Positions 53,186 through 64,000 of a DNA stretch of 64,000 bases are shown here, piece after piece. Source of the stretch: Tolypothrix sp. PCC 7910 (GTDB lineage: Bacteria > Cyanobacteriota > Cyanobacteriia > Cyanobacteriales > Nostocaceae); contig NZ_CP050440.1 in NCBI RefSeq assembly GCF_011769525.1, forward strand, positions 4,031,501-4,095,500. The letters run 5' to 3'. A program made the position numbers and the translations under genes. Below the pieces are notes generated by a model. The model worked only from the letters and a program-made list of their open reading frames with translations, was not told the DNA's origin and searched no databases. The stretch's first letter is position 1. Every line of letters begins with the position of its first letter.

Positions 53186-54439
53186 TCATTTTCCTGTCCA
53201 AATAGCTAGGCGGTGGGAATCTGACAAAAGAAATTCCTGATTCACATCGTTAATATCTACATCAGACTCAACAGCAGAATATAAATGGTGTGCTGTTCCT
53301 TGGCTTGTCGCTTCTGAGCCTAAGCAGTCTCCTTGAGTCCACACAGCCAAGCGATCGCCATCGAGAACCCACCAACGAGGAACTTTGATGCGATCGCGTC
53401 CTGGATCCACAGCAAAACTAGGTGTACGATAGATAATTTCATAGCCACCACGTCCATTAGGACGTAATACCGCCAAGACTGCTTGACCAGAAGCGACCCA
53501 TTCAGCCTCAATTGTGCGGATTTCTCCAAATTTTAATGGATTGTCTAAGTCTATGTGCAATCTGCCGCCTTTAACAGGTACAAGTTGTGCTGTTAAGTGA
53601 TTTCCTCCTACAGCCTCAGGTGGTGGCGCTACTAAACCTAAATCCGCCATTTTACCTGCCATAAATGAGGCGATCGCAGCATGTCCCAAGTTATTGGGAT
53701 GTAGCCCATCAGCAACATATTGAGGTAGCTCTAATGGGGAAATAGCTTCATTTCCTGCATCAATCAACATTGCTCCCACCTCACGCACTCGTGCTTGTAA
53801 TGCCAAATCATAAGGAGCGCGAATTTTCTGTGTCGCTACACTAGGCTGAGGCGTAGACACAATTAATCGGTCTGGTGGCAAATTTGATTTGAGAGTGGTC
53901 AGTAAAGTTTTGACATCTGTGTAGAATGTCCCTGCCTGATCTTGGCTAGCTGAACCTAAAGGAACTTGACGATAAATATCATTAGTTCCATACATCATCA
54001 CCACTAAATCCGGCTTGTAACGTAAAACATCCTGACGCGATCGCTCAACACCTGGTGGAATGCGCCAAGCAGAATCTGCTTTTTTACTAGATTTAGTAAT
54101 CGTAGAACCGGACAAACCTTGGTTAATTTCTTGCCAACCAAGATATCGAGAAAGCAGCGTAGTCCAACGGCGATCGCCTCGAGTACTACCTACACCTACA
54201 GTAGTACTCGAACCAAAAAATACCACTTTCGGGGATGGTTTTAATAGCTGTTGTACAGTGCTAGCGATCGCAGCAGATAAGTTTTGTGGTTGTTTTACCA
54301 CGCTCAATGTTTGGCAATCTTTACCTAACAAAGAACAGTGAATCTCCGTTGCAGTTGATAATTTGGTTCCTGTTACTAAAAAGCAAATGACTGTAGTAGC
54401 TATTAGCAACAGCGTAAAAACCTTTTTAATTTTTCTCAT
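53186..54439 (-). CDS. Secreted SGNH/GDSL hydrolase
   Basis: The 417-aa protein has a signal-anchor (VFTLLLIATTVICFLVTGT) followed by an SGNH hydrolase domain, about residues 70-265. Block I is FFGSSTTVG with S78 as nucleophile; the residue before it is Ser rather than the usual Asp. Block II has NQGLSGSTI, block III is MMYGTNDIYR and block V is DGLHPNNLGH. These hydrolases deacylate lipids or remove acetyl groups from carbohydrates. A second C-terminal beta-rich region, about 290-400, contains FRTIEAEW-like and GGYEIIYRTPSF text. A periplasmic, perhaps polysaccharide-related job fits the nearby exopolysaccharide locus but is inference. It is a single gene. Confidence 0.85.
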   Translation of the reverse strand: MRKIKKVFTLLLIATTVICFLVTGTKLSTATEIHCSLLGKDCQTLSVVKQPQNLSAAIASTVQQLLKPSPKVVFFGSSTTVGVGSTRGDRRWTTLLSRYLGWQEINQGLSGSTITKSSKKADSAWRIPPGVERSRQDVLRYKPDLVVMMYGTNDIYRQVPLGSASQDQAGTFYTDVKTLLTTLKSNLPPDRLIVSTPQPSVATQKIRAPYDLALQARVREVGAMLIDAGNEAISPLELPQYVADGLHPNNLGHAAIASFMAGKMADLGLVAPPPEAVGGNHLTAQLVPVKGGRLHIDLDNPLKFGEIRTIEAEWVASGQAVLAVLRPNGRGGYEIIYRTPSFAVDPGRDRIKVPRWWVLDGDRLAVWTQGDCLGSEATSQGTAHHLYSAVESDVDINDVNQEFLLSDSHRLAIWTGK

Positions 54440-55369: not shown

Positions 55370-55690
55370 CTACACAAGAATGGCGCGGTTGAATTCATCC
55401 TGATTAGCAAAAGTCTCAAAAACACTGTCCATCTTTGTCATTTCAAACAACATTTGTACAGGCTCACTCACCGAGCAGATAAAGAGTTTAGCACCTGACT
55501 CTTTCATGATCCTCAACAGTGACAAGAGCGCGCCTAAGCCAGAACTATCCATTAGTGTTACATTAGCTAAGTCAATTAAGACAATCTCAACACCATCGCC
55601 TACTGCAGAGTTCACTTCTCTACGCAGTTGGTTACCTTGAATTCCATTAAAAATACCAGATGGTTGAAAAATTTTGACTGCAGAACTCAT
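55370..55690 (-). CDS. STAS-domain anti-sigma-factor antagonist
   Basis: The 106-aa protein is a single STAS domain with the phosphorylation site in LMDSSGLGALLSLL. Such antagonists (SpoIIAA-like) release sigma factors or act as switches in partner-switching networks with serine kinases and PP2C phosphatases. None of those is in the window. I start at the ATG 55690 (MSSAVKIFQPSGIF). The frame runs open to 55831, but that part is Lys/Tyr/Phe-rich and unlike the family. Heptamer-like and Pro/Gly-rich repeat DNA precedes it on the left, beyond the stop. Confidence 0.87.
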   Translation of the reverse strand: MSSAVKIFQPSGIFNGIQGNQLRREVNSAVGDGVEIVLIDLANVTLMDSSGLGALLSLLRIMKESGAKLFICSVSEPVQMLFEMTKMDSVFETFANQDEFNRAILV

Positions 55691-55831
55691 AGAGTAAAGC
55701 CTTTGATAGGCAGAACTAGACCAGAAGATTTGATTCACTAGTATATTCGGAAACTTTTTTTTGGACAAATTTACAAAAATATACTTATGATGATACAAAC
55801 ATCCTTTTGCGGTTATGTTCCCCTTCAGCAA

Positions 55832-56279: not shown

Positions 56280-57752
56280 ATGACACATGATTTTGAACCA
56301 CCCCCAAAAAGCTTATCTTTATTAGCTTCCGTGGGAGGGGTTGTTACAGCTATAATCGCTATCGCTAGTCTAAATTATTTATCTAAGCAGCTAACTAGTA
56401 CTGATACTGTGCTAAAAACTGAAATTTCAACTTCTCACTCTGATACAAATAACAAAGCAGCACAAGCTATTGCCAAACTTGATGCTCAATCTCTAGCATT
56501 GCCTGGCACACCTGTGATTCCTAGTCAGGTGACAGTCAATACTATTCCTTATGTTGCGCCAGGAGTAGGAGCATTAACCCCTTGGGACGTTGCAACTGCT
56601 CATCAGGCTTGGTTGTACTTCCAACGTAATTGGAATCAAGAAACAGGCTTGGTCAACTCTGTTGATACATATAAAGCTGTAACAATGTGGGATCAAGCTT
56701 CTGCGATCGCCGCTTTCGTAGCAGCTAGAGAACTCAATTTTATATCTGCCACAGAATTTGACTTCAAAGTCAGCAAAATGCTGGATACTCTAGCATCTTT
56801 GCCTTTATATAAAGGAGAATTGCCTAACAAAGTCTACAATTCTCAAACCCTAATACCTGTAGCTTACGGTCATCCAGATAAAAAAGCCGAAGTCGGCTGG
56901 TCGGCTATTGATTTGGGAAGGATGGCAATCTGGCTCAAAATAGTAGGCGCAAAATATCCGCAGTTAAAATCTAAATCTGATGCTGTCTGGCAGCATTGGC
57001 ACGTTCAACGTCTGACTAAAGACGGGCAAATGTATGGTACAAGCGTCATCGACGGTAAAGAACAATACAACCAAGAAGGACGCTTAGGCTATGAAAATTA
57101 TGCCGCCTATGGTTTAAAACTGTGGGGTTTGGATGTCAATGAAGCCTTAGATTATCAGTCTGACGTTGCCTTTGCAAATCTTTACGGCAAGGGTGTACCC
57201 TTCGACCAGCGTAACTACGAAAATTCGGGAGCCAATAACTATGTTTTGAGTGAGCCTTATATTCTTGATGGCATTGAAACAGGCTTTCAAGCTTTACCTA
57301 AAGCTTATGCCGATCGCGTTTTAGCCGCTCAAGAAGCTCGTTATCACAACACAAAACAATTAACAGCCGTTTCCGAAGATAACGTAGATCGTCCTCCCTA
57401 CTTTGTTTACAGCAGCTTGCTTGTGAATGGTGAACCTTGGGCGACCATCAGTGACAATCAAGAAAAACATAATAATTTGCGGTTCCTCAGTTCCAAAGCT
57501 GCGATTGGCTGGCATGTGCTTTATAACAATGCTTACACTCGTCAATTATTTGATTTTGTGCAAAAAAATCTCAAGTCTGAGAAAGGTTGGTATAACGGTT
57601 TCTACGAAGATTTACAGCAGCCAAATACTTCTACAACTGCTAATAATAATGGTGTAATTCTTGAGAGTTTGCTTTATAAGCATGTAGGCAAACCGCTGAC
57701 AGTTTGGGCCGGGGTAAAATCAGGGCGTTCTTCTGGCAAAAAATCTCCCTAA
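56280..57752 (+). CDS. DUF3131 protein with N-terminal membrane anchor
   Basis: The 490-aa protein has one membrane helix (residues about 12-35, LLASVGGVVTAIIAIASL), then a spacer and a complete DUF3131 module, about 100-475. Module hallmarks are [74 protein letters not shown] and [13 protein letters not shown]. The domain family looks like an (alpha/alpha) barrel of glycosidase type, but its activity has not been established as far as I know. Acidic residues in SEDNVD are candidate catalytic groups. The anchor places it at the periplasmic face. ATG at 56280, with GGTGGAAAG upstream. It is first in the DUF3131-GT2 cluster. Confidence 0.85.
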   Translation: MTHDFEPPPKSLSLLASVGGVVTAIIAIASLNYLSKQLTSTDTVLKTEISTSHSDTNNKAAQAIAKLDAQSLALPGTPVIPSQVTVNTIPYVAPGVGALTPWDVATAHQAWLYFQRNWNQETGLVNSVDTYKAVTMWDQASAIAAFVAARELNFISATEFDFKVSKMLDTLASLPLYKGELPNKVYNSQTLIPVAYGHPDKKAEVGWSAIDLGRMAIWLKIVGAKYPQLKSKSDAVWQHWHVQRLTKDGQMYGTSVIDGKEQYNQEGRLGYENYAAYGLKLWGLDVNEALDYQSDVAFANLYGKGVPFDQRNYENSGANNYVLSEPYILDGIETGFQALPKAYADRVLAAQEARYHNTKQLTAVSEDNVDRPPYFVYSSLLVNGEPWATISDNQEKHNNLRFLSSKAAIGWHVLYNNAYTRQLFDFVQKNLKSEKGWYNGFYEDLQQPNTSTTANNNGVILESLLYKHVGKPLTVWAGVKSGRSSGKKSP

Positions 57753-57787
57753 TCCCAAATTGATTTTAAAAAATTAATTTTTTCAAT

Positions 57788-60775
57788 ATGCTGCAACGCC
57801 ATAAAAAGAGGCTAATGAGAGCGATTGCATTCTTTCTCATTGGCACATTTTTGCAATTTTTATTTTATCTACCAATCGTAGCTATAGCGCAAAAACCTAA
57901 TAGTGGAGGTGGAGGTGGAGGGGGTGCTAATAGTTGTAGCAGTCTCCCTAATCCACTCACACCTGAAGAACAAAATTACGCCAAGATTGCTTGGGAGTAT
58001 TTTGCAAAAAATTACCAGCCAGCAACAGGTTTTGCTAATTCGACTGGTGGGTATCCCTCAGGCACTCTTTGGGATATTGGCAATTATTTGATGGCGTTAA
58101 ATACGGCACGTTGGATCAATTTAATTAACCAAACTGAATTTGACTCTAAAATGAACAAATTCCTCACTACCTTGGGGAAACTTACATTATTTGAAGGTGC
58201 TTTACCAAATAAAGTTTACCATGCTGCCACGGGAGAATTGGTGGATTACACTAATAAACCAGTGGAAAAAGGTATTGGTTGGTCAGCTTTAGATATTGGT
58301 CGCTTACTTGCGGCATTTCATGTGATCCGTACTTGCCATCCTCAATATAAAGATTGGATCAAAGGAGTTTTAGCTAAGTGGCAGTTGGCGCGATCGCTCA
58401 AAGATGGTCAATTATTTGGCGCTGCAGTTTTACCAAATAAAAATACCTTATTGGTACAAGAAGGAAGACTCGGTTATGAAGAATATGCTGTGAGAGGTTA
58501 TGAACTTTGGGGGTTTAAAGCACCTAAAGCTGTAGCTCTAGAACCATATAAAATGGTCGAAATTAACGGCATCCAAATTCCCTATGACACCCGTGACTAT
58601 CAACAAACTAATGCTAATAATTATGTAGTCAGTGAATCATATATTTTAGATGGTATTGAATTTGGTTTAGAAGGGTATTTAAAAGATTTTGCCGCCAGAG
58701 TTTTAGAAGTACAAAAGCGCCGCTTTGAGGCTACAGGACAGCTAACTGCTGTCTCAGAAGATAACATCGATCAACCCCCTTATTTTCTTTACAATACTAT
58801 TTACTCTAATGGTGCAATTTGGGCAACTATTACAGAAAAAAATAAGCCCTATACACAGTTGCGGAGCATCAGTACTAAGGCTGCATTTGGCTGGCGTTAT
58901 CTTTATCCCAATAATACCTATGCTCAAAAAGTTTTTGATGCAGTCAAAGATTTGTCTAGCCCTAAGGGTGGTTTTTACGCTGGCTTATATGAAGAAACTA
59001 AACAACCAAATAAATCTCTGAGCGGCAACACTAATGGCTTAATTCTCGAAATTTTATACTACAAAGCTAGAGGTAATCGCCCTCTGATTGGATCGAATGG
59101 AGTGACTATTCCAGCATCACCATCGAAGTCACCACCAATAGATCCTGATGCCAATACTCCAGCTTCTACAGGTAAAAATCCTAGTAACTCAGCTTCTACA
59201 GGTAGAAACCCTAGCAATACACCCTCTACTGGTAAAAATCCCAGTAACTCAGCCTCTACAGGTAAAAACCCCAGCACTGCACCTTCTACAGGTAAAAATC
59301 CTAGTAATCCATCCTCTACAAGCAAGCAACCCAGTAATTCAGGCTCAGATGCTGAAATAGTGGCAGTTGCACCCATCCCACCAGTAGGTAACTCCTTACC
59401 AGCGTCCTATCCAGTACCAGCGAAACCCCTAACCGTCACCCAAAAACGTTATGCTGAGGCAGCTTGGGGATATTTCAAAGCCAACTTACAATCTGCAAAT
59501 GGGTTGTTGAACGATCGCGCTGATGTTCCGGGAGCAACTTTCTGGGGATTGGGAGATTATCTAGCTGCACTTCATGCAGCTTTAGCATTGGATATCATCA
59601 AGCCGAAAGAATTTGATGAGCGTACCCGGCAATTATTAGCCGCGATCGCACAGATGCCTTTATTTGCTGGTGAATTACCCAACCGAGGTTACGATACACG
59701 CACACTACAACCCATAGATTATGGTGCGAATCCAGTTGCAGATGGCAATGGCTGGTCGGCTTTAGATGTAGGACGGATGCTCGCAGCCTTATATAACTTG
59801 AAAACTTGCCATCCAGAATATACAGCAGCTGTAGATCAAATTGTTCTTGATTGGTCTTACTTGCGGATAGTACGCAACGGTATAATTTCCAGCGCTACCG
59901 CCATTAAAGATACAAAAGGGCGATCGCTTCCCCGTGTGAAGCCAGAAACCCGCTTAGGATATGAGGAATATGCTGCACGTGCTTTCCAATTGTGGGGATT
60001 TGATGTCGATCGCTCTGCTGTTGGTGGTCAATATAAAACTGCAACAGTAGAGGGTGTCCAAGTACCAATTGTACGTACTAGAGATAACACCTTAAAAACA
60101 AATCAATATACAGTCAGCAATCCGTTCTTACTCTACGCTTTAGAATTTGGTCTAGATCCACAAATGCGATCACTCTTTACACCAATTTTCCAAGCGCAAG
60201 CTGAACGTTACCGCAACACTGGCAAACTCACCGCTTCTGGTACAACACTGACTCATCAACAACCCTACATTGTTCACAGCACAATTATTGGTAATCAACA
60301 ACCTTGGGCAGCTTTAAGTGATGATGGCAAACCTATAGAAGATGGGCGATTAGTCAGTTCGGCAGTTGCATTCGCTTATAACGCCCTATTTCCAGACGAT
60401 AAGTATGCCCAAGAATTACTGACTGCCACAACTGACTTGTATAATCCCTTACTAGGATTCCATGAGGGTTTTTACGAAAATACTGGCAAAATCGCCCTTG
60501 GTTTTACCAGCAGCACCAATAGTATGATTCTGCAATCCTTGCTGTATAAAGTCACCAAGCAACAACCGCTAATTCGCCCCGATACTGCTATGAATTCCCC
60601 CTGGTGGAAAGCGATCGCTGAAGGAGATTCCGGTCACGGTCTACCCAGCACTCCGAAGCAGACATCCAGATTTATTTCTAATACCTCAGGACAATACTGG
60701 GTTTCCAACAGTAGCGACACCGTCAACTTGAGCGAACAAAAACTAGAGAATTTGCTAGCAGTACCGTCTAAGTAG
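57788..60775 (+). CDS. Secreted protein with two DUF3131 modules
   Basis: The 995-aa protein has a signal peptide ([23 protein letters not shown]), a poly-Gly stretch and a first DUF3131 module (about residues 60-435; [48 protein letters not shown]). A Ser/Thr/Pro/Asn repeat linker follows (about 455-520; STGKNPSN units). The second module (about 550-935) keeps [16 protein letters not shown] and [14 protein letters not shown], but where the others have SEDNxD it reads [15 protein letters not shown]. Module two therefore lacks the acidic pair and may be non-catalytic or binding. It lies 35 bases after the previous gene, so both are probably on one transcript. Confidence 0.88.
59158..59346 (+). 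repeat. ~30-bp coding repeats in the DUF3131 linker
   Basis: Six or so copies of a TCTACAGGTAAAAATCC-type 30-bp unit encode STGKNPSN(S/T)A/P decapeptides. Base changes between units are few, suggesting recent expansion. Length polymorphism is expected. Confidence 0.85.
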
Positions 60776-61020
60776 GGAAAGGGGAAAGAGTAATGGGTAA
60801 TTTATTTAGGGTTTGGTTATTTCCCCTTGTCCGTCCTTCCCAATCCCCAGTCCCCAATCCCCAATCCCCAATCCCCAGTCCCCAGTCCCCAATCCCCAGT
60901 CCCCAATCCCCAGTCCCCAATCCCCAGTCCCCATTACCCCTAATCCCCACTCCCTGCGGTCGTGGGGGCCCCGAGTTCCCCAGTCCCCAATCCCCAGTCC
61001 CCACTCCCCAACTCCATAAT
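60776..61020. repeat. STRR heptamer tract between DUF3131 genes
   Basis: About twenty CCCCAAT/CCCCAGT units follow a short unique piece, broken once near 60955-60985 by GCGGTCGTGGGGGCCCCG. Frames on both strands are artefacts of the repeats. It separates the two-module gene from the next DUF3131 frame, which starts inside a module remnant. Confidence 0.9.
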
Positions 61021-61107
61021 TTCCTGGTGTTCATTAGCTGGTTTTTATGTATAAATTGATAACAAATCTCTAAAATTAAATGTGCAAATTGGAGTAGTGA
61101 ACTATAC

Positions 61108-62571
61108 TTGGCAAACTTCAATCAAGCTCTAGGCAATAGAGCAACTGATTTAATAGGGTTAAATAATGTGATTCTGGAATCTGCACTGTATCTGGAAATC
61201 AATCGGCATTCCTTCTGTCCTCAAGAGGTATGGCAATGTACTCCCTCTGTCATTATTGCTGCTCCTGATAACTTTAATCCTGACTCTGGGAATTCAGAAT
61301 CTACTGCGCCTGTAGAGGAAGTAAAGCCTGTGCCCAAACCTACGATCAGTCCACCATTAGTTGCGCCAAAGCCTACTCCAGAAAAAACTGTTGTACCTAC
61401 TGAAAATATCTCTCAACCCCGATTGACTAAAGAAGCGGATTTAATTGCTGCTCAACGCGCTTGGAAATATTTTGAACGCAATTGGAATCCCCAAACAGGT
61501 TTAGTTAATTCATCCCACAACATCGCGTGGACGACTTGGTGGGATCAAGGTAGTGCTGTATTAGGAATTTTTGCGGCTCGACAATTAAATTTATTATCAA
61601 CTGATGTATTTCGACAACACATCAACACCTTACTGAAGACTCTAGAAACCCTACCACTACCAGCTACAGGTTTGCCCAATAAAGCCTATAGTACCAGTAC
61701 TGCTCAAATGCAAAAACTCAATAATACTCCCGATCCAGAGGGTAAGAGTGGTTGGTCTGCTTTAGATTTAGCCAGATTTTTATTAGCATTGCATATTTTG
61801 CGATCGCATTATCCCGAGTATAGCGATCGCATTAATCATATTGTGGCTGGCTGGAAGTTAACCAAACTGGTTAAGGATGGTTGGTTAAATGGTGGTGTTC
61901 CCGAATCTGGGGGCAAAATTCGTGAGGTACAAGAGGGACGTTTAGGCTACGAACAATACGCTGCTCATAGTTTAAAGTTGTGGAATATCCAAGCTACTAA
62001 AGCTCTCGCTCATCCCCCATCTGACAAAGTGCAAGTAGATGGTATTACCTTAGAAATTGACAGACGAAACTTAAAAAATTCTGGCGCTACCAACTATTTA
62101 ACAAATGACCCTTATTTATTATTGGGATTAGAAATAGGTTGGACAGATGCAATTAAAGCTCAAGCCGAAAATCTGCTCAAAGTCCAAGTACAAAGGTTTA
62201 AGCGCACCAATATTTTAACTGCTGTCAATGAAGATTCTTTGGATCGTCCACCTTATTTTCTTTATTACAGTGTCTATGCCAATGGAGTAACTTGGCCTGC
62301 TACTAGTGTTAGTGAAAAAAGTTATCCCCACTTGCGATTTATCAGCACCAAAGCCGCATTTTCTTGGTATGCCCTCATGCCAGATGATCCCTACACAAAA
62401 ATGCTGCGAGATGCTGTACAAAATTTGGCTAGTTTAAAGAATGGCTACTTTACTGGTAAATATGAAAATCAAGAGTTAGGTATTAATAATTCTCTAGATG
62501 TTAATACTAACGCTGTTATTTTAGAAAGCCTGCTTTATCAAGCTAGAAAAAAACGCTCGTTAATTTTTTAG
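61108..62571 (+). CDS. DUF3131 protein, 5' end missing or replaced
   Basis: This frame has one complete DUF3131 module, about residues 110-485 ([93 protein letters not shown]). No ATG occurs before the module's middle. The best start is TTG at 61108. The first ~40 residues contain [18 protein letters not shown], which matches the end of another DUF3131 module, and a cysteine/Pro-rich stretch follows. It has no signal peptide. I read it as the downstream half of a formerly longer, multi-module protein whose 5' part was lost where the STRR tract now stands. If expressed it may stay cytoplasmic. It lies 19 bases before the GT2 gene. Confidence 0.7.
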
Positions 62572-62590
62572 TTCATTTTAGGGTGCTAAC

Positions 62591-64000
62591 ATGACCTCCG
62601 TATCGTTTGTAGATCATTCCTCAGATTTTCCTGGTAATAGCCGTTCTACACTTAAAAAAAGAACGCTAATATTCCGTTATTTGGCAGAGATAAATTTAAT
62701 TTTTGGTGCTTGGTATTTACAATGGCGTATTACCCATTCCATCAACTTTGATGCTCTGTGGCTATCTCTACCTTTGCTGCTAGCAGAAATTTATAGCTAT
62801 TTCGGCGGTATGATGTTTGTCGTAGGATTGTGGCGACCTTTGGTCAGACAGATTAAGTCTATCGATCAATTAACTCCTCCTTTAACAATATCTAATTGGC
62901 CGAATGTAGATGTATTTATTGCCTGTTACAACGAGCCTACAGAAATTGTAGAAGCAACTGCCAGAGCCGCTTTAAATATAGATTATCCTCCTAATAAGCT
63001 TCGAGTTTATATATTAGATGATGGTAACTCACCTCAGATGCGAGCTATGTCAGAAAGGCTATGCATTGAAGACTTACAGTCACCATTACTGCAACAAGAA
63101 GCTCAGAAAATAGACGTTGAGCGCTCGGCTTTTATGGAGCAGTTACAAGAATTAGAAACTCTAAAGCCTAATTTGTTAAACGCGGAAGAATTATTACAAG
63201 ATTTATCTCAAAAAGATAATCAATCTCAAAATAATAGCACAACATTTTTACAGAGTTTACGGCAATTTATTCTTGATTTTAGCCGCCATCATCAAAATAA
63301 TCATACTGCTCAAAGAAGTTTAAAAGAATGCCTAATTACTGAGCAAGAATTTTTAGCAAAAGCTATTCACCAAAAGGAATTAGAATTGGGTGATTTGGCT
63401 AGATTACGCTATATCGCGCGTCCTAAACAACCCGGTGTATCACATCATGCAAAAGCAGGTAACCTCAATTATGCAATTTTTTCTGGTGAAACTGCTGGGG
63501 AATTTATTTTAACTTTAGATGCTGATCATATTCCGCAACCACAATTTCTCAAGCGTGTTTTGCCATATTTCTATAATTACAATCTGTTTGGCGGCAAATA
63601 TGAGCCGAACAAAATTGCCTTTGTCCAGACACCCCAGGGTTTTTATAACCTTCCTCCTAGCGATCCTTTTGGACATCGAGCCAATTTATTTTATGGGCCG
63701 CTACAACAAGGTAAAGATGGTATGAATGCAGCCTTCTATACAGGAACTAATGCTGTATTGAGAAGAGAAGCGCTGATTAGTGTTGGACTACAATATTTTG
63801 CTGATGAATATGCCAAAGATGAAAAAAGGTTAGATGAATTTGAATTGATTGGCGGCGTATCTAGTAACAGTATTACAGAGGATATGAATACCGCTATGCG
63901 GTTACATAGTGCTGGATGGAAATCTATTTATCACCATGAACTTTTAGCAGAAGGTTTAGCCCCAGAAGATTTGAGTTCTACTCTGCAACAAAGACTACGC
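62591..64000 (+). CDS. Cellulose-synthase-like GT2 glycosyltransferase (partial)
   Basis: The first 470 residues of a processive GT2 enzyme are inside the window, and the gene runs off its end. Two to three membrane helices (about residues 28-85) precede the catalytic domain. That domain has FIACYNEP, the first Asp pair ILDDGNSP (D143/D144), HHAKAGNLNYAI, the metal-binding LDADHIP (D310/D312) and SITEDMNTAM with catalytic TED (429-431). The frame ends in QQRLR, exactly where QxxRW would give W next. An extra ~125-residue helical stretch lies between DDG and the KAGN segment (about 150-280), unusual for BcsA. It polymerises a beta-glycan and moves it across the membrane. It follows the last DUF3131 gene by 19 bases. 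Confidence 0.92.
   Translation, partial: MTSVSFVDHSSDFPGNSRSTLKKRTLIFRYLAEINLIFGAWYLQWRITHSINFDALWLSLPLLLAEIYSYFGGMMFVVGLWRPLVRQIKSIDQLTPPLTISNWPNVDVFIACYNEPTEIVEATARAALNIDYPPNKLRVYILDDGNSPQMRAMSERLCIEDLQSPLLQQEAQKIDVERSAFMEQLQELETLKPNLLNAEELLQDLSQKDNQSQNNSTTFLQSLRQFILDFSRHHQNNHTAQRSLKECLITEQEFLAKAIHQKELELGDLARLRYIARPKQPGVSHHAKAGNLNYAIFSGETAGEFILTLDADHIPQPQFLKRVLPYFYNYNLFGGKYEPNKIAFVQTPQGFYNLPPSDPFGHRANLFYGPLQQGKDGMNAAFYTGTNAVLRREALISVGLQYFADEYAKDEKRLDEFELIGGVSSNSITEDMNTAMRLHSAGWKSIYHHELLAEGLAPEDLSSTLQQRLR

Follow-up and report, generated by a model that had tools for sequence, protein, structure and literature searches.

The last part of a 64,000-nucleotide stretch of the 8.76-Mb genome of Tolypothrix sp. 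PCC 7910 (G000:C1:4031501-4095500, here called the window) carries a gene cluster built around DUF3131 (PF11329), an uncharacterised Pfam family. Three successive genes on the plus strand (56280-62571) encode four complete DUF3131 modules, and the gene for a family 2 membrane glycosyltransferase (GT2) starts 19 bases past the third (62571 to 62591); both features had been described in an earlier note on this DNA and were confirmed here. We call the three proteins D1, D2 (modules D2a and D2b) and D3. These genes probably provide the core functions, synthesis and processing, of a synthase-dependent system for a secreted glycan, most likely a β-glucan, and the stretch appears to hold most of a conserved, unstudied machine that makes, reshapes and exports a sugar polymer.

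Predicted fold of the DUF3131 modules

The genome encodes five DUF3131 modules, each scoring 450-556 bits against the PF11329 cut-off of 20.3 over nearly the full model length. The fifth, D5, is encoded by a separate gene (2361349-2362650) 1.7 Mb from the cluster. An AlphaFold2 model of D2a (predicted local distance difference test 93.4, predicted template modelling score 0.92) has the (α/α)6 fold of glycosidases, the barrel that the earlier note had proposed looking for. It superposes on members of the SGL clan (clan GH-S, of glycoside hydrolases, GH), and the nearest solved structures are β-1,2-glucan enzymes and GH144-like proteins. The predicted fold closely matches a glycosidase fold of the β-1,2-glucanase type. 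The available parts of two papers place GH144, GH162, GH189 and GH192-194 in this clan (PMC12102758, PMC10834661). In the part of PMC12102758 at hand, the members with activity use β-1,2-glucan, not cellulose, as substrate, and DUF3131 is not named there. The DUF3131 modules differ from the clan in being repeated and in lying beside a separate GT2.

A cyclic glucan synthase (CGS) is the best match of DUF3131 both by structure and by sequence in the PDB (8wy1, E = 4.3e-4; apart from it, a search of the PDB to E = 10 gave a single match, at 2.5). With hhalign, DUF3131 was aligned with GH189 (E = 2.4e-6, residues 1-92) and with GH144 (E = 1.7e-5, residues 4-124), and GH189 with GH144 over the same region (E = 2.3e-5). 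In the reverse direction, PF11329 weakly matched two of four CGSs (17.3 and 14.4 bits, below cut-off) and neither of two GH144 proteins; in the scan of our genome sample, which consists of 292 genomes spread evenly over the phylum, the first CGS gene scored 19.4 bits (cut-off 20.3). CGS combines polymerase and cyclisation parts in a single giant protein, and its frames in the sample are 1436-2948 aa long, whereas the system described here has a separate BcsA-like GT2 as its polymerase and an outer-membrane barrel besides. The Tolypothrix genome itself has no known CGS or GH144 (no PF10091 match); 10 of the 292 genomes have one. BMEI1837, named as a DUF3131 protein in a table of PMC6382750, is linked to cyclic β-1,2-glucan in PMC3743847, as far as the available parts of these papers go.

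The GT2 synthase

The GT2 matches PF03552 (136.6 bits) and other GT2 families in Pfam. Its own motifs lie at 63017 (DDG), 63518 (DxD) and 63875 (TED), with an insert between U1 and U2. Comparisons covered 80 named loci, which scored best among 581 confirmed stretches and all have cyanobacterial titles; because the best were kept, this set is biased to close relatives. Simple patterns for the processive GT2 residues D, DxD, TED and Q(Q/R)xRW were found in all 68 frames of at least 600 aa from these loci, and FxVTxK in 67 of the 68. No second BcsA-like synthase was found in the genome, a protein search giving no other match at E = 0.001.

The cluster could belong to a cellulose (β-1,4-glucan) system, in which DUF3131 would replace BcsB and BcsZ as a periplasmic guide or editing enzyme, perhaps as in the PCR-type synthases of cyanobacteria. 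BcsA (E = 1e-52 to 2e-51) and then plant CesA are the nearest solved structures of GT2 by sequence, FxVTxK is shared with the cellulose synthases, and the outer-membrane barrel described below resembles BcsC among others. The U1-U2 spacing is 162 residues, compared with 62 in two BcsA-like rows, about 100 extra. An insert at this position is called PCR in cyanobacterial synthases, and the part of PMC12430437 at hand describes alr3757-type (XcsA, PCR type) synthases as having it and lacking PilZ. Likewise, a Pfam scan of the 669-aa GT2 gave no PilZ match at E = 0.01. However, GT2 reaches 342.3 bits with the CelA equivalog TIGR03030 of NCBIfam, whose cut-off is 699.1, and it is separated in the GT2 tree from three BcsA-like rows, albeit where long branches meet. 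The active clan enzymes in the part of PMC12102758 at hand work on β-1,2-glucan instead of cellulose, and OpgC, which adjoins D5, is a partner of the osmoregulated periplasmic glucan (OPG) type. Unlike cellulose synthases, this GT2 is accompanied by a DUF3131 array and by a partner switch. On this balance we consider a cellulose product unlikely. The genes scanned in and next to the window include neither BcsB nor an endoglucanase, which leaves uncontradicted the earlier observation that no bcsB or cellulase was visible, and the lack of a PilZ match together with the score below the BcsA equivalog cut-off agrees with the distinct architecture that had been proposed.

Conserved and lost residues

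The residue counts cover 258 modules, drawn from the 80 named loci and from six plasmid stretches, after modules covering fewer than 330 model columns or scoring below 60 bits had been dropped. Numbering follows D2a and starts at the N-terminal residue of that module, the first of the two in the 995-aa protein. D35 is kept in every D1 (49/49), D2a (85/85), D3 (32/32) and D5 (4/4), and E263 likewise (49/49, 85/85 and 4/4) with 31 of 32 in D3, where the remaining one is a gap. E170, in the GYEEYA motif, is kept in 48/49 D1, 85/85 D2a, 32/32 D3 and 4/4 D5. By contrast, all 74 D2b copies from the named cyanobacterial loci have Gly at position 35 and Thr at position 263, while retaining D108 (74/74), E170 (69/74) and E230 (73/74). 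The same landmarks had been ascribed to all four modules of the window; this does not hold for D2b, the second module of the 995-aa protein, which lacks both SEDNxDRPPYF and LWD.

A module tree of 57 of 68 modules (L046-L049 and L051-L054 were left out as near duplicates) contained supported clades for D1, D2a, D2b, D3 and D5. The D2b stem is long, with a branch of 1.04. The D5 clade consists of two rows, both from one family, and the other clades span several families.

D108 lies in the GWSALD motif, which hhalign pairs with the STID motif of GH144. E170 may, by motif order, correspond to the clan general acid (E239 of XcSGL, E1356 of TiCGS), in a region where the profile alignment is weak, and E263 (VSED) is aligned with the GH189 nucleophile (ISES; E1442 of TiCGS) in a weak hhalign alignment (E = 0.17). 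The GH189 nucleophile could be placed because the invariant E438, E482, E524 and H618/H619 of that alignment are spaced as E1356, E1400, E1442 and H1536/H1537 of TiCGS. No His-His pair comparable to H1536/H1537 was found near the module C-termini, where the alignment is unreliable. An assignment of the DUF3131 active site from sequence search alone was set aside, since hhalign is unreliable past residue 124, and we do not claim a nucleophile.

The modules might instead be non-enzymatic, forming a chain-binding scaffold or chaperone that links GT2 to the outer-membrane barrel. The presence of several modules per protein is in keeping with this, as are the loss of two conserved acids in every D2b copy and the GH26-like operon proteins with an altered nucleophile site (see below). 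Catalysis fits better than binding because D35 and E263 are so strictly kept in D1, D2a, D3 and D5, and we give a purely binding role a correspondingly low probability.

Conservation in cyanobacteria

In the 292-genome sample, DUF3131 exceeded its cut-off in 18 genomes and occurred as full-length modules in 16. The GT2 (at least 63% identity) was found in 15 genomes, all of them among the 16, the sole DUF3131 carrier without it being G035, a divergent, 87%-complete draft. In one genome without DUF3131 (G131) there was a GT2 match in two pieces (55% and 47%) at the E = 1e-60 limit. The barrel family (E = 1e-20) occurred in 14 genomes, all with DUF3131 and GT2, even where the barrel gene is non-adjacent as it is here. 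Naive hypergeometric probabilities of co-occurrence with DUF3131 are 3e-24 for GT2, 4e-22 for the barrel and 6e-6 for OpgC; these figures are too small because of relatedness, 11 of the 16 carriers belonging to one family. Two genomes (G068 and G091) have only DUF3131 fragments, of 36 and 42 residues, and a third (G251) has D1 and GT2 but neither a full D2 nor the barrel; these fragments and this partial set are signs of loss of the system.

The conserved DUF3131-GT2 neighbourhood that the earlier note had suggested looking for was found in 68 of the 80 named loci, and in 46 of the 48 with full flanks. By per-family score limits that we set, the 80 loci also contain STAS (58), PP2C (59) and RsbW (49) genes, the barrel (34), a GH26-like protein (11) and OpgC (4). 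The corresponding counts with full flanks are 41, 44, 37, 25, 9 and 4. Of the 68 GT2 loci, 47 have STAS, PP2C and RsbW together. A distance of 500 bases or less separates GT2 from the closest DUF3131 frame in 60 of them, and in 61 that frame shares the strand of GT2. Near D1, two loci (L042 10532-13848 and L048 7394-10711) share a gene set that by look is ABC-exporter-like, with one HlyD/DevB-like member.

Partner genes

GT2 is followed by genes for a STAS protein, for a response-regulator/PP2C (SpoIIE) protein, which is encoded on the opposite strand, and for an RsbW-like ATPase and a hybrid kinase. This STAS gene, outside the window, is the second; the first lies upstream of D1. Pfam thus identifies a partner-switching set of STAS, PP2C/SpoIIE and HATPase_c_2. 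The genes past position 64000, which the earlier note had recommended reading for pumps or further transferases, gave this set and neither a pump nor a further transferase up to genome position 4104500.

At the second locus, an OpgC_C gene (PF10129, 167.9 bits) lies 2 bases from D5, and an outer-membrane barrel gene (2371747-2373177) lies about 8 kb past the pair. The gene set is therefore split over two loci 1.7 Mb apart. The barrel has the outer-membrane fold of PgaA/BcsC-type exporters, with PgaA the best match and BcsC among the others. It differs from them in having no tetratricopeptide repeats (TPRs) in the two members scanned with Pfam at E = 0.1, one of which had a BCSC_C match of 18.1 bits (cut-off 23.5). 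A very long gene that by look encodes calcium-binding-type repeats separates the barrel gene from OpgC-D5; such a frame lies between them at L007 12456-19001 and L159 1-2541.

OpgC adjoins DUF3131 in three cyanobacterial genomes. In a fourth, G035, the two are about 6 kb apart, and OpgC, RsbW, STAS, PP2C and a DUF3131 fragment share one contig. OpgC also occurs in several proteobacterial loci, and its presence recalls the OPG system of OpgG, OpgH and OpgC. Here, however, OpgG/MdoG was found in none of the 292 cyanobacterial genomes, this one included (the E. coli control was positive), and GT2 scores 19.3 bits with MdoH against a cut-off of 550. We accordingly rejected a canonical OPG system on the absence of MdoG in the 292 genomes; OpgH itself was not searched for.

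Gene layout

The features of the cluster are collected in Table 1. Hydrophobic N-termini at residues 11-29 of D1 (anchor-like) and 9-27 of D2 (signal-like) bear out, by Kyte-Doolittle hydropathy only, the membrane anchor and signal peptide that had been noted for the first two proteins. The fifth module tail that had been noted is weak but plausible: over 24 residues, an N-terminal stretch of D3 matches the end of a module (50% identical, E = 1.4), and a Nostoc record (L041) has the N-terminal region of D3 including this tail (45% over 98 aa). D2 and D3 are fused as one three-module protein in several lineages (L039, L043, L050 and further loci), which suggests that the separate D3 of the window is a broken-off part; its N-terminus holds a likely remnant of a module tail. 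The closest D2a sequences in the best-80 set (96-98% identity) are those of Nostoc carneum NIES-2107, Nostoc linckia FACHB-104 and Calothrix membranacea FACHB-236. Upstream, a GDSL-type esterase gene occupies 53186-54439 of the window on the minus strand.

Table 1. Features of the DUF3131-GT2 cluster, in window positions
Feature	Position	Strand	Description
STAS-domain protein	55370..55831	-	divergent from D1; PF01740 60.3 bits
D1	56280..57752	+	490 aa; N-terminal hydrophobic anchor; one DUF3131 module at ~56589-57695; PF11329 517 bits
D2	57788..60775	+	995 aa; signal-like N-terminus; two DUF3131 modules; PF11329 1036.8 bits in two stretches
D2a module of D2	57971..59080	+	keeps the family-conserved acidic residues
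D2a-D2b linker	59160..59346	+	repetitive, Ser/Asn/Pro/Thr-rich; 30-base repeats
D2b module of D2	59444..60565	+	degenerate; D35 to Gly, E263 to Thr (D2a numbering)
7-base tandem repeat between D2 and D3	60839..61010		consensus CCCAGTC, 23.6 copies
D3	61108..62571	+	487-aa frame, TTG start; Pro-rich linker; one DUF3131 module at ~61441-62556; PF11329 479.5 bits
GT2	62591..64000 in window	+	BcsA-like membrane glycosyltransferase of 669 aa; runs on in the genome to 64600

Proteobacterial plasmids

DUF3131 matches were found in 27 plasmid records, one of them from Nostoc (L041), and 11 proteobacterial ones were examined. A glycosyltransferase adjoins DUF3131 in all 11, OpgC or another acyltransferase occurs in 8, and PP2C, STAS and ATPase genes occur together in 8 (those of Vibrio through our own profiles, with a weak RsbW match). 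Pantoea stewartii has two of these three genes, and none was found in the stretches seen of Mesorhizobium and Sulfitobacter. Enterobacterales, Vibrionales and Rhodobacterales carry the same core on plasmids. A cluster in Paracoccus encodes a protein with TPRs and PgaA_barrel. In Klebsiella pneumoniae the same gene set is listed as accessory block 3b, with no function given in the part of PMC12974863 at hand. In Shewanella, four genes (swp_2164-2170) are grouped under salt shock into a DUF3131 module, according to the available part of a network study (PMC8371737); this is only a hint of an osmotic link.

QxxRW is absent from all nine proteobacterial partner GT2 rows, so their acceptor site, and perhaps their product, may differ. 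The BcsA-like GT2s of L137, L138, L139, L166 and L164 have QRFKY or QRYKY in place of QxxRW and SED in place of TED.

Nature of the product and proposed mechanism

Beyond the probable assignment to a β-glucan, a more specific reading is possible and is offered tentatively. DUF3131 would be an unrecognised hydrolase/transglycosylase family of the β-1,2-glucanase clan, and a stand-alone BcsA-like polymerase, separate periplasmic modules and a TPR-less barrel would together yield an acylated, possibly cyclic glucan of β-1,2 type. We hold this reading well below the broader one because of the PIG-L, GH26-like and GH2 neighbours and the GT2-deacetylase pairing in Sulfitobacter. Since the readings overlap, a β-1,4 product being still a β-glucan, the probabilities given to them and to their rivals do not sum to one.

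Several observations weigh against a β-glucan system of this kind. D3 of Tolypothrix sp. PCC 7910 has no hydrophobic N-terminus or visible signal peptide by Kyte-Doolittle hydropathy. The mapping of catalytic residues beyond residue 124 is weak (hhalign E = 0.17), and the acids are looser in 14 proteobacterial modules (D35 8/14, D108 12/14, E170 7/14, E263 9/14). In the four proteobacterial partner GT2s compared at this site, QRFKY or QRYKY replaces QxxRW. OpgC (E < 1e-40) was found in four genomes, all DUF3131 carriers but only 4 of the 16, and partial OpgC matches over the cut-off (about 50-90 positions) occur in two genomes without DUF3131 (G082 and G131). On a Sphingobium sp. RAC03 plasmid (L164 8926-18061), a sister GT2 stands with ATPase, STAS and SpoIIE genes and without DUF3131. 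A PIG-L deacetylase is present in 32 of the 80 named loci (22 of the 48 with full flanks), a GH26-like neighbour protein scores 17.2 bits (Pfam cut-off 20.2), and a GH2 protein at the Salmonella plasmid locus has a Mannosidase_ig match of 21.2 bits (cut-off 23.4). On the Sulfitobacter indolifex plasmid (L141 5337-11137), DUF3131 is C-terminal in an 845-aa protein beside a fusion of GT2 and polysaccharide deacetylase.

Some of these loci have further features. The Sulfitobacter arrangement is a second kind of pairing between DUF3131 and a glycosyltransferase. The Sphingobium locus also has BcsS and GH16 genes, with a PilZ gene just upstream. We do not claim membership of GH26 for the neighbour protein, given its score. 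Of five GH26-like operon proteins aligned, four have Gln at the position of the nucleophile, which we take to be Glu in GH26, and 8 of the 12 frames listed have FIAQT there, the other four not matching the search pattern. The FIAQT-bearing genes are in L074, L077, L081, L082, L093, L108, L109 and L112, with short frames in L093 and L109. Judged by this motif, these operon proteins may be non-hydrolases.

An amino-sugar or mannose-containing polymer, with DUF3131 moved away from glucan, would account for the deacetylase, the GH26-like and GH2 proteins, the Sulfitobacter fusion and the position of PgaA as best match of the barrel, but it is the least probable of the alternatives, given that GT2 scores 342.3 bits with cellulose synthase compared with 72.0 with PgaC (both below cut-off), that the fold neighbours of DUF3131 are β-1,2-glucan enzymes, and that no PIG-L gene was found in the cluster of this genome or in 48 of the 80 loci.

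For the favoured β-glucan system, the following mechanism can be proposed. GT2 would polymerise the chain and extrude it across the inner membrane. DUF3131 modules may trim, bind or package the glycan; we favour a role in which anchored D1 and the D2 and D3 modules cut or transglycosylate the chain as it emerges into the periplasm, with D1, D2a, D3 and D5 as the candidate enzymes on the nascent β-glucan. Their action could set chain length or cyclise the chain. D2b, lacking two conserved acids, would be a non-catalytic clamp. The OpgC acyltransferase, with its own DUF3131 partner, would decorate the chain, and the PgaA/BcsC-like barrel without TPRs would release it. Control would probably lie with the partner switch of STAS, PP2C and RsbW-like proteins, rather than with PilZ and cyclic di-GMP. 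An inner-membrane GT2, periplasmic modules of glycosidase fold, acylation and an outer-membrane channel together give the plan of a synthase-dependent polysaccharide system. Its unusual features are an array of several DUF3131 modules, a degenerate module that is conserved, an OpgC partner in the absence of OpgG, and a partner switch accompanying a PilZ-less GT2.

Implications

Through this analysis the uncharacterised family DUF3131 gains a predicted fold, a probable activity class and a set of partner genes. To our knowledge, few synthases have been assigned for the sheath and slime glycans of cyanobacteria. If the β-1,2-type reading is true, many filamentous cyanobacteria would have a glucan system switched by RsbW, STAS and PP2C, which would be an accessory trait of Proteobacteria. 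The gene set is sharply defined and co-occurs genome by genome, so a direct knockout test is possible. Intact and degenerate modules are naturally paired, which provides a built-in test of catalysis versus binding.

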